Shown here piece by piece: positions 6,212 to 25,473 of a stretch of DNA of 64,000 nucleotides; position 1 is the first letter of the stretch; each line of letters opens with the position of its first letter. The notes under the pieces are model-generated. The model searched no databases. It was not told where the DNA came from and saw only the letters and a program-made list of their open reading frames with translations. The DNA is from Terriglobia bacterium (GTDB lineage Bacteria > Acidobacteriota > Terriglobia > JAJPHL01), in NCBI GenBank assembly GCA_021325275.1, contig JAJPHL010000063.1:62001-126000 (forward strand), given 5' to 3'. Made by a program: the position numbers and the translations under genes.

Positions 6212-8103
6212 TGGCGCGCCTGCACGCGATGCTCTCCGGGCGGCAGCAGAAGCGATTCAACGGCCTTCCCATCGACGAGGATGCTGGACGGAAAGCTCGA
6301 AAAAGCCGCGATGGCTCGGGCATCGGACCGATAGGTGAAGGAAATTGTCCTTGGATCGTCGTACGTCGCGCTTAATAACTCGCCGGAGAGATGCGTGAGC
6401 GTGAACCCCGGCGCGTCACCGGCGCCGACCGTATGTTTGCCGGACGGCACAAGAATCGCGGCGGGCGTGCGCGCGGGCCACGGTTTGCCGTCGAGTTGCG
6501 TGCTGTTCGTTTGCACCCACACGCTTCGCGGTGACTCCACACTGTCGCCGCTCAACCGCGCGCTCGCGGCGAGCGCATATGCCACCGTCTCCATGTCGCG
6601 CGGCAACACGGACGCTTCAAAGTAAACCAGCACGGGAGAAAACGCCGCCGCCGCGTTGTGAAACAGTTCGAGAAACTCGCCGCCGGTTTGTCTCTTGGTC
6701 GGGAAAACATCTTGATAGCGATCAACCACGTTGATGTCGATGCCCGCGGTCTGCGCGCCGTATTTCTCTCCGAGCACGGAATAGCGCTCCGGTCCCAACG
6801 ACCACATCGACGCGGGATCTTCAACGACCAGCGTGAACGCCGAGGCCGGACGGAGCAGCGTGACATCGACGCCGAGCGCTTCTCTCATCCGCGTCTCGTA
6901 CAAATTGTCGACTGAAGTAAGGATCGCGTGAAGGTACGGCTTCGTCAAGCGTGCGCGGTGGATTTCGTGGAGCATGAGTTCATCCAAGGACCGCACGCGG
7001 CCCACGCGGTAATCGACGAATTTCTTCCAATTCGCCGCATCCTTCAAGTAGTGGTGCGGCGACGACGGATCGAAAAACTCCACCGGATCGATTCCCGATT
7101 GCTTGCGGAAATCCGCGCGGACAACATCGTTCATCGGCGTAAAACGCTGCGGGTTCTCCGGCCCTTGCGGCGACTCGTAGTACAACTCGGACAGGTTCAC
7201 GCCGTCCCAATCGAAATCGCCGAGGAGTTTGTTGAGATCGCGCGCCACTGCTTGAAATGCGTTCGGATCGAGGAGGTTGATCAAGCCGCGCCAGTCGAGA
7301 TGCGCATCGGCGAGCGCGGCGGTTTTTTCACGCCATTCGGGATGATCCTGCCAGAACTTGTCGCTGACGTGCGGCAGCTCGAGCCACGCGTAGACCAGCA
7401 CGCCCTCGCGATGACACGCGGCGATGAGCGTGTGCAGGTATTGGTCGCGGTCGGAATTACGATCCCAGAATTGCCACGCGCTGGCGTGCAGCGCCATGAC
7501 ACCGTCGCGACGCCAGCGTTTCGCGAAGTAATCGACATCCACGCCGGTGCGATATCCATAGTCGAAGAAAGCGTGCAGGCGCGACGCGCGAAACGGCGGC
7601 GTAACGCCGCACTCGGCGATCAGCGTTTGGATGAAGTAGGGAAATCGCGCATAGCCGGAAAGCGGCGCGGCCAGAAAAAAGACGCGGCCGCGGCCGTGCG
7701 GAAAGACCATCGCCAGTGGCGCGCCGGTCCATTTGTCTTTGACGGTGACTTTCGCGCCTGGGGGCACCGATGGTGGCACGAGCTTCAATGGCTTTTCCCA
7801 GACGATCGCGAGTTTCGGGCTGCTTGCGTCTTCTACTTGTGTCACTTCAATCGACGATGCATTGAACGAAAGTCCCAGCGCGCGAGAGAGCGGGGAATCG
7901 CCTTCGGTTACGAGGAGCGCGCCGGAATCGACACGCGCAACAATTGCCGCCGTATCAACTCCCGTGGCGCCTGCAGGAACGACGATCGCCGTCGCGTCTT
8001 CGATGCGCTCGACCATCGGGATTTGCACGGCGTCAAGGAGCCGGGCGTAGTCGGGCGGCGCGCCGAAGAGAAAGAAGCAAGCGTGAAGGGCGACACAGAG
8101 CAT
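6208..8103 (-). CDS. TIM-barrel glycosidase-like protein, longer paralogue
   Basis: A 631-aa protein with a short hydrophobic N-terminus (VALHACFFLFGA) that may be a signal peptide. An N-terminal GATase-like domain (to about residue 170) is followed by a barrel region containing YAWLELPHVSDKFW and WDGVNLSELYYES. A C-terminal beta domain of about 150 residues (ILVPSGKHTVGAG, ILVDGKAVESLLLPPGEH) is lacking in the paralogue. It heads a run of three unknown genes. The shared motif W-D-G-V-N-x-x-E-x-x-Y-E is probably the active site. Substrate is unknown; the proximity to GH88 and KduI genes suggests polysaccharide work. Confidence 0.75.
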   Translation of the reverse strand: MLCVALHACFFLFGAPPDYARLLDAVQIPMVERIEDATAIVVPAGATGVDTAAIVARVDSGALLVTEGDSPLSRALGLSFNASSIEVTQVEDASSPKLAIVWEKPLKLVPPSVPPGAKVTVKDKWTGAPLAMVFPHGRGRVFFLAAPLSGYARFPYFIQTLIAECGVTPPFRASRLHAFFDYGYRTGVDVDYFAKRWRRDGVMALHASAWQFWDRNSDRDQYLHTLIAACHREGVLVYAWLELPHVSDKFWQDHPEWREKTAALADAHLDWRGLINLLDPNAFQAVARDLNKLLGDFDWDGVNLSELYYESPQGPENPQRFTPMNDVVRADFRKQSGIDPVEFFDPSSPHHYLKDAANWKKFVDYRVGRVRSLDELMLHEIHRARLTKPYLHAILTSVDNLYETRMREALGVDVTLLRPASAFTLVVEDPASMWSLGPERYSVLGEKYGAQTAGIDINVVDRYQDVFPTKRQTGGEFLELFHNAAAAFSPVLVYFEASVLPRDMETVAYALAASARLSGDSVESPRSVWVQTNSTQLDGKPWPARTPAAILVPSGKHTVGAGDAPGFTLTHLSGELLSATYDDPRTISFTYRSDARAIAAFSSFPSSILVDGKAVESLLLPPGEHRVQARQ

Positions 8104-17969: not shown

Positions 17970-18045
17970 GGGCCTGTAGCGCAGTTGGGAGCGCGCCTGA
18001 ATGGCATTCAGGAGGTCGCCGGTTCGATCCCGGCCAGGTCCACCA
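17970..18045 (+). tRNA. tRNA-Ala (anticodon GGC)
   Basis: A 76-nt tRNA. The acceptor stem GGGCCTG pairs with CAGGTCC and includes the G3-U70 pair that identifies tRNA-Ala. D-stem GCGC/GCGC, anticodon stem CCTGA/TCAGG with loop ATGGCAT (anticodon GGC), T-arm GCCGG-TTCGATC-CCGGC and an encoded CCA end (18043-18045) are all present. It reads GCC and GCU codons. Confidence 0.98.
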
Positions 18046-20403: not shown

Positions 20404-20763
20404 TCACGCCAATAGGAAACGCATTGGCCGGAGCGCACGTTTGAACGGGTCGAGCACGAGCCCTAAGCTCTCAAGAGTCGTAACCCCGAGCAGAGACTCA
20501 TCGCCCTTTTCTCCAAAAATGACGGGCGCTGGTCCCCGGCTGCCGTTGATCTCGAAGTAGGCGTCACCAACCTTCCGCTTGACCTTCGTCCCATCGGCTA
20601 GCGTAAATGTCTCGGTGCGATATGGGCGGAGGCCCAGTTTGCGGAGAATTGCGCCCGGAACCACGCTATACACGGCACCCGAATCCATTAAGAACTCGAC
20701 GGACTGAGAGGCGCGTGCGGATCTGCTAGGCCGCACGATCCCAACCTGCATTGTTAGTCCCAT
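20404..20763 (-). CDS. Retropepsin-like aspartic protease
   Basis: A 119-aa single-domain protein with the active-site motif FLMDSGAVYSVVP (D-S-G), the hydrophobic flap-side segment and the C-terminal LLGVTTLESLGLVLDP typical of clan AA, retroviral-type proteases. Two copies would be needed to form the active dimer. No signal peptide is visible. It converges on the CreD-like gene with a 1-bp gap. Substrate unknown. Confidence 0.82.
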   Translation of the reverse strand: MGLTMQVGIVRPSRSARASQSVEFLMDSGAVYSVVPGAILRKLGLRPYRTETFTLADGTKVKRKVGDAYFEINGSRGPAPVIFGEKGDESLLGVTTLESLGLVLDPFKRALRPMRFLLA

Positions 20764-20864: not shown

Positions 20865-21663
20865 AAAAAAGAAAATGGGTTCCAAGCGACCGCGCAGAGC
20901 GGGCGAAATAGCCTTGGCTTCGGTAACAGTATTCCGCGCATCCGTCCCCGGCGTCTCGCCGGGTAGGCGACCGAGTTTCCTCGTCTTGGCTTCCCCTCTC
21001 CCAGCCACCCTTGCGGGCGGCCTGCCCCCGCATTTTCCGCGGGGATTCAGGATCAGGGTTGTCGTCCGAGGTATCTCCAACGGTTTCGGCGCAGCCTTTC
21101 GACATCGCCGTTCCCCGCCAGATCTTCTCCTGCTCGAACCTCGCCGCCTGCCTTTCGGCCGGCCGCTCGGTGTCCTGAGGGTCGTTACTTGGTCCCGCGC
21201 AGAGCCTTGCGGCCCCACCCGGGCGTCGAGGTTTCCTTGGCGTTCTCCCTAGACCCGGCGCCTTTCAGCTTCCGGTTCGGTATCCGAGCGATCCCTGCGG
21301 TTCCCGTCCACGTCGTTAGCTTTGAACTACGGCTTTTACACCGCCAACCTGAACCAGCCCGCGCTTCTTACCCGGCCTATTCGCCCTGCGCATCGATACG
21401 CTTGGCGCGTCGCCACTTCCCCCTCGACCTGCTCCGCGCTGGTCGTTGACCATTTTCCCTTGCGGGCTTCCGGCTACGCTCACGCGGTCCTACGACATTT
21501 CCCCCAAGTCTACTGCCGGCTCACGGTTTTAAGATGTGCCGGTCTTCGGCAGGTTCCTCTCGATTCCTTCCGAATAGTCGCCCTGCGGCTTCCATCCGGC
21601 TGTTCGGAACCTACTACCTTCGCCGAGAGCTTCTTCCCACTGCTGGGACCTCTCGGAACCCAC
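20865..21663 (-). ncRNA. Large structured RNA candidate, copy 1
   Basis: An element of about 800 nt with no credible protein reading. An 11-bp helix closes it: 20876-20886 pairs with 21652-21662. Hairpins on the minus strand include 20947-20963 (7-bp stem), 21026-21044 (6-bp stem), 21202-21215 (5-bp stem, GCAA loop) and 21260-21269 (GAAA loop). A promoter at 21669-21697 ends 6 nt before the closing helix, and the 3' end runs into a U-tract (20865-20875 on the minus strand). It is alignable over its whole length with copy 2 at 21979-22803. In several stems the non-Watson-Crick pair is G-U on the minus strand but A-C on the plus strand, which fixes the strand. I do not recognise the family. Confidence 0.75.
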
Positions 21664-21668
21664 GTATA

Positions 21669-21697
21669 GTTATAAATTCAACTTATGATTTCGTCAA
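21669..21697 (-). promoter_or_regulatory. Promoter of RNA copy 1
   Basis: On the minus strand TTGACG (21692-21697), a 17-nt spacer and TATAAC (21669-21674). Start of transcription is expected at 21661-21665, at the 5' base of the closing helix. Copy 2 has the same -35, spacer length and position although the spacer sequence differs. Confidence 0.8.
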
Positions 21698-21730
21698 GAT
21701 CTTTCGATCTCATGTTTTCAACCACTTCGT

Positions 21731-21742
21731 ATTTTGCTGCAC
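21731..21742. promoter_or_regulatory. Conserved upstream element of RNA copy 1
   Basis: ATTTTGCTGCAC (plus strand) lies 45 bp from the -35 of copy 1. The identical 12-mer lies at the same distance from the -35 of copy 2, while the DNA between differs. It may be an activator site or UP-like element. The remaining 21743-21978 is AT-richer sequence in which I see no gene. Confidence 0.5.
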
Positions 21743-21978
21743 TAATCTCGTGCAAAAGAGCCATCAAGTCGAGCCTGTGGATTTCGTTTCGAGCGCCTAC
21801 ATGCACGGAAGGCCGATAAAATAAGGGTTAGAATGCTATGCTGCAATATAGTGCAATGAGAATTCAACAACATTTCCACAGAGCATAAATAGCTTTCCAC
21901 AGAAACCGGCTAGTTTTGAGGCAATGCTAAATTGTTCGCTAATTGGATTACAGCGGGCGGGGAATTGAGAACGGCGGG

Positions 21979-22803
21979 AAATAGAAAATGGGTTCCAAGC
22001 GACCTGGCAGAGCGGGTGAACAGCCTCAGGCTTCGGTAACAGCGTTCCGCGCATCCGTCTCCGGTGTCTCACCGGATAGGCGACCGAGTCTCCTCGTCTT
22101 CGCTTCCCCTCTCCCAACCACCCTTGCGGGCGGCCTGCCCCCGGCTTTTCCCCAGGGATTCAGGATCAGGGTTGTCATCCGAGGTATCTCCAACGGCTTC
22201 GGCGCAGCCTTTCGACATCGCCGTTCCCCGCCAGATCTTCTCCTGCCTGAACCTCGCCGTCTGCCTTTCGGCCGACCGCTCGGTGTCTTAAGGGTCGTCT
22301 CTCGTTCCCACGCAGAGCCTCGCGGCTCCACCCGGGCGTCGAGGTTTCCTTGGCGTTCTCCCTAAACCCGGTGCCTCGCGGCCTCCGGTTCGGTGTCCGG
22401 GCGATCCCCGCAGTTCCCGCTCGCTCCGTTAGCTTTAAACTCCGGGTTTTATCCCGGCGGTGCGAACCAGCCTGCGCTTCTTACCCGGCTCATCGCCCTG
22501 CGTATCGATCCGCCTGGCGCGTCGCCACTTCCTCCCCGACCTGCCCCGCGCTCGACGCTTCACTTTCCACCCTTGCGGGCTTCCAATTCGCCATCCACCC
22601 TTGCGGGCTTCCGGCGGCGCTGACGCGGTCCTGCGCTATTTCCCCTAAGTTCACTGCCGGCTCACTTTTATATGTGCCGGTCTTCGGCAGGTTCCTCTCG
22701 ATTCCTTCCGAATCGTTGCCCTACGGCTTCGATCCGGCTGTTCGGAACCCACTACCTTCGCCGAGAGCTTCTTCCCACTTGCTGGATCTCTCGGAACCCA
22801 CGT
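21979..22803 (-). ncRNA. Large structured RNA candidate, copy 2
   Basis: A second copy, same orientation, about 1.1 kb from copy 1. The 11-bp closing helix is 21989-21999 with 22790-22800. Hairpins homologous to copy 1: 22060-22076 (two compensatory pair changes), 22039-... region conserved, 22139-22157 (one compensatory C-G to G-C change, one G-U on the minus strand), 22315-22328 (loop GCGA instead of GCAA) and 22373-22382 (loop GCGA instead of GAAA). An 18-nt hairpin segment is duplicated (22567-22584 and 22595-22612), adding 28 nt relative to copy 1. A U-rich run follows the 3' end (21979-21988). Promoter at 22807-22835. Confidence 0.75.
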
Positions 22804-22806
22804 AAT

Positions 22807-22835
22807 GTTTTAATCTCACCTTAACGTTTCGTCAA
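22807..22835 (-). promoter_or_regulatory. Promoter of RNA copy 2
   Basis: On the minus strand TTGACG (22830-22835), a 17-nt spacer and TAAAAC (22807-22812), a slightly weaker -10 than copy 1. Transcription should begin near 22800-22804. Confidence 0.75.
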
Positions 22836-22868: not shown

Positions 22869-22880
22869 ATTTTGCTGCAC
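22869..22880. promoter_or_regulatory. Conserved upstream element of RNA copy 2
   Basis: ATTTTGCTGCAC (plus strand), 45 bp from the -35, identical in sequence and spacing to the element of copy 1. Confidence 0.5.
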
Positions 22881-22998
22881 TTTCCTTCAGCAGGAGAGTT
22901 TTTTGAGAGTGAGCACGTTGTTATACGGCATTCCTACGATTTTTGCACCGCTACTAATTCGCGACAAAATGATTCAAACGCAACTTGCTGAAAATGAT

Positions 22999-23967: not shown

Positions 23968-24074
23968 GAGCGTACCGGCGCTTGAGAGGAATCTAATTTC
24001 CGCAGCGGGGCAAACCTAACTTACGTCTCGAATCGAGGCACGGCTCGGTGGCGGCTCCATTTGCGATTCTTGCT

Positions 24075-24291
24075 GCATCCCGGAGGGATGCTAGCCTGTA
24101 GCCGGTGGTTGAGCGTTCTTTGCGATACCACCGGTTTGAAAACGTAAACAAATTTCGATCCCGGAGGGATCGCAGCGGGAGGCAGAACTGCTGCGATCCC
24201 TCCGGGATCGAAATAATATTTTGTTCGCCTATCCGGTGGTATCGCGAAAACCGCTCAACCACCGGCTACAAGCTGCGATCCCTCCGGGATC
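24075..24291. repeat. Nested palindromes, MITE-like or large hairpin
   Basis: The gap 23968-24396 contains nested inverted repeats: a perfect 19-bp pair (24097-24115 with 24252-24270), a 13-bp pair (24122-24134 with 24233-24245) and a 25-bp pair (about 24152-24176 with 24189-24213). They share one centre with a short loop. Further CATCCCGGAGGGATG-like and GATCCCTCCGGGATC palindromes lie outside (24075-24091, 24274-24291). The unit resembles dispersed intergenic repeats. The rest of the gap shows nothing else. Confidence 0.85.
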
Positions 24292-24396
24292 GAAAAACTC
24301 CAAGTCACCACGTAGCGCCCGGCAAAACATATTGTTTTCCCCTGAAACAACAGTTTATGATCGGTGTATCGGCAGATTCCTGCCAAGGGGGTGGAC

Positions 24397-25473
24397 ATGC
24401 ATATCAACGTTCGGGCGAGCGTTGCGATTTTTTCGGCCGTTTTCTTGGCCGCACTCACACTCAGCGCGCAAACCGGTTCCACAACTGCGCCTGCCAAGCC
24501 CAGCCCCTCGGGTCCCGCCGCGTCGCCTAGTTCCTATGGCACGCAACCGACCATCTTGGGCGCGCCGAGCACCGGCGCGAACGTGGGCATTTCCGGTCGC
24601 GTTGTGCCGAACCAGTTGACGCGCGTGGCCGTGGAGCTTTACCAAGATGGCATTCGTCTCGATACGACCTACACAGGGTCCGACGGCTCGTTCCGCTTCC
24701 CCCGCCAGATGAGCGATCGCCGCTATGACGTACACGTGATCATGCCGGACGGTCAGGAAGTTTCGCAGATGGTCGATTTCATGGGGCAATATCCCGCCAC
24801 GGTGCAGCTCAGCTTGGCGAAAGTGGTGAAGTCGGACAGCGATGCCAAGCCGGCATCGGGCACGGTGAGTGTCGCGAACCTGTCGGCGCCCAAGAAAGCG
24901 CAGCAAGAGTTCGAGAAAGCCGTGGAGCTGGCCGAAAAGAAAAAGTTCGACGATGCGATGACGCACTTCCACAAGGCCACCGACATTTACGCGAAGTATC
25001 CGGCGGCGTACAACGAAATGGGACAAGTGGAGCGCGCGCAGAACCACGCCAAGGAAGCAGCGGTGGAATTTCAGAAAGCCATCGACGCCGATCCGAAATG
25101 GGTGGTGCCGTACGTCAATCTGGCGCAGGTTCAGTTGACCTCCCACGAGATCGAGCCGATGATGAAGACCAACGAAAAAGCGCTGGCCCTCGATCCGACG
25201 CTGGCGATGCCGAATTACTTTAACGCGGTCGGCTATCTCACCATGGGACGTTTAGAAGACGCCGAGAAGTCCGCGTTGGCCGCCGAACGCACCGACCAGG
25301 GACGCACGCCGCAGATCCAACTGGTCCTCGCGCATGTGTACGATGCGCGTCACGACGTGGCGGGCGCGCTGGCTCACTACAAGCGGTTCCTAAAGGAGAG
25401 TCCCCACGCCGCGAACGCTCCGCAGATCAGCGCGAGGGTGGCCGAGATGGAGAAGGCCGAGGCGAAGCCGTAG
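24397..25473 (+). CDS. Exported TPR protein with carboxypeptidase-regulatory-like domain
   Basis: A 358-aa protein starting at 24397 after AAGGGGG. A signal peptide (SVAIFSAVFLAALTLSAQ) is followed by a Ser/Pro/Thr-rich linker, a beta-sandwich of the CarboxypepD_reg type (about residues 50-120, VAVELYQDGIRLDTTYTGSDG start) and four or more TPR units (KAVELAEKKKFDDAMTHFHK, AKEAAVEFQKAIDADPKWVV). TPRs mediate protein contacts; this one is likely periplasmic. It lies upstream of PEP-CTERM and TPR-lipoprotein genes and may belong to an envelope or secretion system. No enzymatic motif is seen. Confidence 0.85.
   Translation: MHINVRASVAIFSAVFLAALTLSAQTGSTTAPAKPSPSGPAASPSSYGTQPTILGAPSTGANVGISGRVVPNQLTRVAVELYQDGIRLDTTYTGSDGSFRFPRQMSDRRYDVHVIMPDGQEVSQMVDFMGQYPATVQLSLAKVVKSDSDAKPASGTVSVANLSAPKKAQQEFEKAVELAEKKKFDDAMTHFHKATDIYAKYPAAYNEMGQVERAQNHAKEAAVEFQKAIDADPKWVVPYVNLAQVQLTSHEIEPMMKTNEKALALDPTLAMPNYFNAVGYLTMGRLEDAEKSALAAERTDQGRTPQIQLVLAHVYDARHDVAGALAHYKRFLKESPHAANAPQISARVAEMEKAEAKP

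Follow-up and report, generated by a model that had tools for sequence, protein, structure and literature searches.

Two direct repeats with shared ends

Structured RNA classes longer than 600 nt are few in bacteria, and the minus strand of the window (the whole stretch of 64 kb analysed here) raises the question of whether two direct repeats of ~0.8 kb each, lying between 22803 and 20865, encode another one. A preliminary description of this DNA had taken them for tandem copies of a structured RNA on the minus strand, in a region without a credible protein gene, each copy bounded by the same 11-bp closing helix, preceded by a promoter (TTGACG-N17-TATAAC or TAAAAC) and ended by a U-rich run. 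We consider it very probable (roughly 0.9) that each copy is a gene of ~0.8 kb for a free-standing structured non-coding RNA, a reading for which no expression data are at hand.

Copies A and B (Table 1) are the only two in the source genome (6.9 Mb) and align from end to end, with 84% identity when gaps are included and 87% over aligned bases. Outside these limits identity is 62% in the first 100 nt upstream, and about background both beyond this zone and downstream. The upstream zone alike in A and B contains a promoter-like element and a shared 13-mer. The pattern TTGACGAAA-N14-TWWAAC has two exact matches in the window, one before each copy, with 0.00 expected and none in shuffled sequences; a generic sigma-70 scan listed neither element, because the -10 ends in C. 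The 13-base element, identical in both copies, has two matches in the window and nowhere else (0.09 expected with one mismatch allowed). It is possibly a regulator or UP-type site and was not seen in the Lake Pavin relative described below.

The closing helix formed by TGGGTTCCGAG and CTTGGAACCCA comprises 11 pairs (one of them G-U) and a further 4 in both copies, and is predicted in the minimum-free-energy folds of A and B. Behind it follows a T-rich run, with TTTTCT at the end of both copies, with no strong or classical hairpin for local termination detected at either 3' end. The tandem arrangement, the common closing helix and the U-rich ends of the preliminary description were all recovered, as was the promoter in the sense of a promoter-like pattern. 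Copy A additionally carries 29 nt (~22558-22586, minus strand) with a second CCCGCAAGGG hairpin that is missing in copy B; this is apparently a local duplication, GGAAGCCCGCAAGGGTGG being present twice.

Table 1. Coordinates of the RNA copies and their associated elements in the window.
Feature	Position	Strand	Remarks
RNA copy A	22802..21985	-	~0.81 kb; 5' end near 22802, T-rich end near 21985
RNA copy B	21662..20868	-	~0.79 kb
Promoter-like element, copy A	22807..22835	-	TTGACG-N17-TAAAAC; pattern TTGACGAAAN14TWWAAC
Promoter-like element, copy B	21669..21697	-	TTGACG-N17-TATAAC; pattern TTGACGAAAN14TWWAAC
13-base element AGTGCAGCAAAAT, copy A	22869..22881	-	33 nt upstream of -35
13-base element AGTGCAGCAAAAT, copy B	21731..21743	-	identical 13-mer, 33 nt upstream of -35
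Closing helix 5' strand, copy A (TGGGTTCCGAG)	22790..22800	-	pairs with 21989-21999
Closing helix 3' strand, copy A (CTTGGAACCCA)	21989..21999	-	followed by TTTTCTATTT
Closing helix 5' strand, copy B	21652..21662	-	
Closing helix 3' strand, copy B (CTTGGAACCCA)	20876..20886	-	followed by TTTTCTTTTTT
3' core domain, copy A	22103..22286	-	used for covariance model; GGAGAAGATCYGGCGG and GATACnnCGGAYGRCAACCCTGATCCTGA, kept in homologue
3' core domain, copy B	20990..21173	-	

A fold common to both copies

Folded as minus-strand RNA, copy A reaches a minimum free energy of -385.5 (z = -8.94 against dinucleotide shuffles) and copy B one of -360.9 (z = -6.21), while the opposite (plus) strand attains a z of only -2.07. 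The fold shared by A and B contains 239 pairs, with 100% of cells paired and 11 two-sided compensatory changes, against 5.5 +/- 1.6 in shuffles; when the partners were slid by 1-3 columns, 35-46% of cells paired and at most one two-sided change was left. This fold was derived from the same two sequences on which it was tested, which favours it over the slid controls, and over the whole length it rests on A and B alone. Substitutions affect 39 of the 472 paired positions (8%) and 62 of the 315 unpaired ones (20%). Many hairpin loops are of the GNRA type, and some are exchanged between the copies for another GNRA loop (GCGA to GAAA, GCGA to GCAA and GAGA to GAAA). The copies have diverged by 13-16%, with compensated changes, and we infer that they stem from an old duplication and are both still under structural selection.

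Known RNA families and the intron alternative

At gathering thresholds, Rfam 15 yielded only a tRNA (17970-18042) in the whole window, and a cmscan of the RNA region with E values up to 10 gave nothing meaningful; the sequence, which the preliminary description had not recognised and had proposed to search in this way, matches no Rfam 15 family. RNase P RNA and tmRNA in disguise were ruled out, as the genome has both elsewhere (contig C49, 291.7 bits, and contig C13, 172 bits, respectively). The 6S model has no match in the source genome, though it also misses most control genomes. We did not find such an RNA in Acidobacteriota in the open-access literature, a search that leaves out most subscription papers and preprints.

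Size and structural complexity are in a range that would also suit a ribozyme or an RNA derived from a self-splicing intron, either group II or circularly permuted group II (PMC8637638), with catalysis directed at itself or at other molecules. Part of copy B was indeed aligned with group-II-D1D4-6, as a very weak, chance-level match (11.7 bits against a gathering threshold of 49, E = 2.3), but no group II model rose above threshold, and neither a domain-5-like hairpin nor intron ends could be recognised by eye. Unlike introns, A and B are each preceded, immediately upstream of the 5' end, by a promoter-like element of their own and finish in a T-rich run, and the flanking genes scanned include no reverse transcriptase. 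We regard the intron or ribozyme reading as unlikely.

A homologue from Lake Pavin and the distribution of the RNA

The 184-position covariance model built from the 3' cores of A and B gave one good match among 60 relatives (47.5 bits, E = 2.8e-8), on contig JAPKYU010000410.1 of a Lake Pavin sediment Acidobacteria MAG, which belongs to a different family of the same order. The hairpins of this homologue differ greatly from those of A and B, yet both core motifs of Table 1 are retained together with TTGGGAGnGGGGAAG and CGCCTAYCC, and its 3' end consists of the closing-helix strand CTCGGAACCTA followed by a T run. Aligned over the core, the three sequences pair in 98.7% of cells (slid controls, 38-51%) and show two-sided changes in 13 of the 50 pairs, a result that is favoured by the alignment having been fitted to the model.

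A second contig of the same MAG carries 71 bases of the RNA's 5' end and then stops. Before this piece stands TTGACC-N18-TACAAA, at positions matching the promoter-like element of A and B, and in the source genome the 71 bases match (E <= 1) nothing but the 5' end of copy A. When the 5' and 3' pieces were cofolded, they formed an end-to-end helix stack as in copy A at -94.2 kcal/mol, a value that none of 300 shuffles reached (-70.5 +/- 4.7 kcal/mol). Both contigs are broken inside the RNA, which leaves roughly half of the homologue to work with and its middle missing. Homologues of a large structured non-coding RNA should compensate their substitutions within one common fold, as is the case here, and the assignment of a structured RNA to the minus strand is supported by the strand-specific fold and by compensatory changes, both between the copies and with the homologue.

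The two contig ends need not be assigned to different RNA copies: their closing helices can pair and therefore one copy suffices, the true copy number remaining open. The breaks themselves could point to strain variation within the population or to several copies of nearly identical sequence. Just past the T run of the RNA (~7040-7105 of the Lake Pavin contig that holds it) lies CGGCTGACGGCTTTCGGCTGACGGC as a short tandem repeat, and behind it come repeats of CCACCT-type units.

A nucleotide search of acidobacterial genomes, also proposed in the preliminary description, was run with copy A as blastn query against 399 genomes of the class and 396 of the phylum, and returned nothing but isolated stretches of 20-50 matching bases, which upon re-alignment were taken for chance; it was the covariance model that yielded the Lake Pavin homologue. 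An improved model built from three sequences added nothing beyond chance in the same 399 and 396 genomes. These large scans score few first-look candidates per genome, and diverged members could be missed. Two weak covariance matches (G022, 25.6 bits; G585, 28.7 bits) lack the conserved motifs, and the latter lies inside an apparent protein gene. An exact-pattern scan of 84,980 species genomes found the Lake Pavin MAG as its sole true match, four others being protein-gene-like stretches. Phage and plasmid collections gave no match at the sensitivity used, and the matches of a structure-derived pattern in viral contigs were AT-rich sequence without helices. Judged from the genome sequences searched, this seems to be a rare RNA, known to date from two bacterial families within a single Acidobacteriota order that is sparsely sampled. 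Measured against Rfam 15, it is apparently a new class.

Its patchy distribution, the tandem pair and the contigs of the relative broken inside the RNA could all be expected of a repeat that is selfish or mobile and folds to promote its own propagation. Such an element is, however, hard to reconcile with a total of two copies that differ by compensated changes, with the lack of common flank ends past the promoter region, with the lack of mobile-element genes among the neighbours scanned, or with the absence, at the sensitivity used, from phage, plasmid and viral collections. We think it very unlikely, even if two genomes alone do not suffice to rule out a role that is selfish or specific to the lineage.

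Genomic context

The RNA copies are flanked in the source genome by genes for a PEP-CTERM protein, an aspartyl protease, a CreD-like protein and a TPR protein. In the Lake Pavin MAG, a CRP-type regulator and an outer membrane barrel are encoded on one side and CpsB/CapC and a TPR protein on the other, and nothing specific is common to the flanks of the two genomes. Between the PEP-CTERM and TPR genes of the window (~23993-24530), look-alike ORFs on opposite strands (MVERFSRYHR... and MVERSLRYHR..., both with STTGY and SLRD) suggest an inverted repeat.

Copy B ends ~100 nt before the aspartyl protease gene (20763..20404) on the same strand, an arrangement that would allow a cis-acting leader of this downstream gene. 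That interpretation can scarcely be upheld: copy A precedes not this gene but copy B, which has its own promoter-like element, both copies have a T-rich end behind the closing helix, and the downstream gene in Lake Pavin (CpsB/CapC) is unrelated and convergent. The differing flanks and the convergent gene of the relative therefore argue against a cis-regulator. A chromosomal RNA that acts in trans rather than in cis fits best, with neither transcription nor function having been shown. A coding sequence or degenerate gene on either strand can be dismissed, as the preliminary description had held, for mechanical ORFs reach ~150 aa but all whole-length frames contain stops, no frame on either strand is under coding constraint (pN/pS 0.6-1.4 across frames), the A/B comparison has no third-position bias or excess, and indels break the frame.

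From sequence comparison alone, we consider it established that the locus is non-coding, that an elaborate strand-specific fold is under selection and that both ends as well as a promoter-like element are conserved.

Proposed mode of action

We infer that a sigma-70-type promoter would start the RNA at its closing helix and that, ~800 nt later, the 3' strand of this helix would pair with the waiting 5' strand directly before the T-rich run. Such late pairing may close the molecule and also assist termination. Once closed, the RNA, which has ~eight GNRA tetraloops as well as junctions rich in purines, is predicted to fold into a compact and stable particle, which its junctions and GNRA loops, together with the size of the molecule, make likely. 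It would act in trans, most likely as a ribonucleoprotein scaffold or as an RNA-only oligomer like OLE, ROOL and GOLLD (PMC12286853). By analogy with these RNAs, we give a role as scaffold or RNA-only assembly about an even chance; the analysis brought up neither a partner protein nor an associated gene nor a catalytic motif. Catalysis by the RNA is possible, as an inference only. Overall, we lean towards an undescribed class of large RNA, chromosomal and duplicated in one sparsely sampled Acidobacteriota order, that would form an RNA-based particle or a ribozyme with a cellular function unlinked to phages.

Comparison with known large RNAs

The likeness to OLE, GOLLD and ROOL that the preliminary description had seen holds for size and elaborateness and does not extend to homology, for which no evidence was found. 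GOLLD resembles copies A and B as an independent unit of ~800 nt with an elaborate branched fold and unknown function (PMC12286853). It occurs in phage and prophage genomes, in many cases close to tRNA islands (PMC12286853). Copies A and B, in contrast, do not match the GOLLD Rfam model, and the genes scanned next to them are of ordinary chromosomal types; the rest of the window is unannotated for phage genes, and the nearest tRNA lies 2.8 kb from the RNA copies. ROOL (Rumen-Originating, Ornate, Large) is likewise large, ornate, independent and of unknown function, but it measures ~660 nt and has a phage or prophage context (PMC12286853), and its Rfam model does not match A or B. OLE (Ornate, Large, Extremophilic) is further characterised by partner proteins (Oap) and membrane localisation. 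It shares with A and B a large size, an elaborate conserved fold and the lack of a precisely known function; it is ~600 nt long and mostly found in Bacillota (PMC12054373), while A and B are known only from Acidobacteriota and have no match to the OLE Rfam model. OLE, ROOL and GOLLD proved to form unexpected RNA-only assemblies (PMC12286853). A further class unrelated to them, located on the chromosome and coming from a phylum of soils and sediments, would offer a fresh case in which to test what such large RNAs do, and structure work on it could be guided by the two natural variants together with the diverged homologue.
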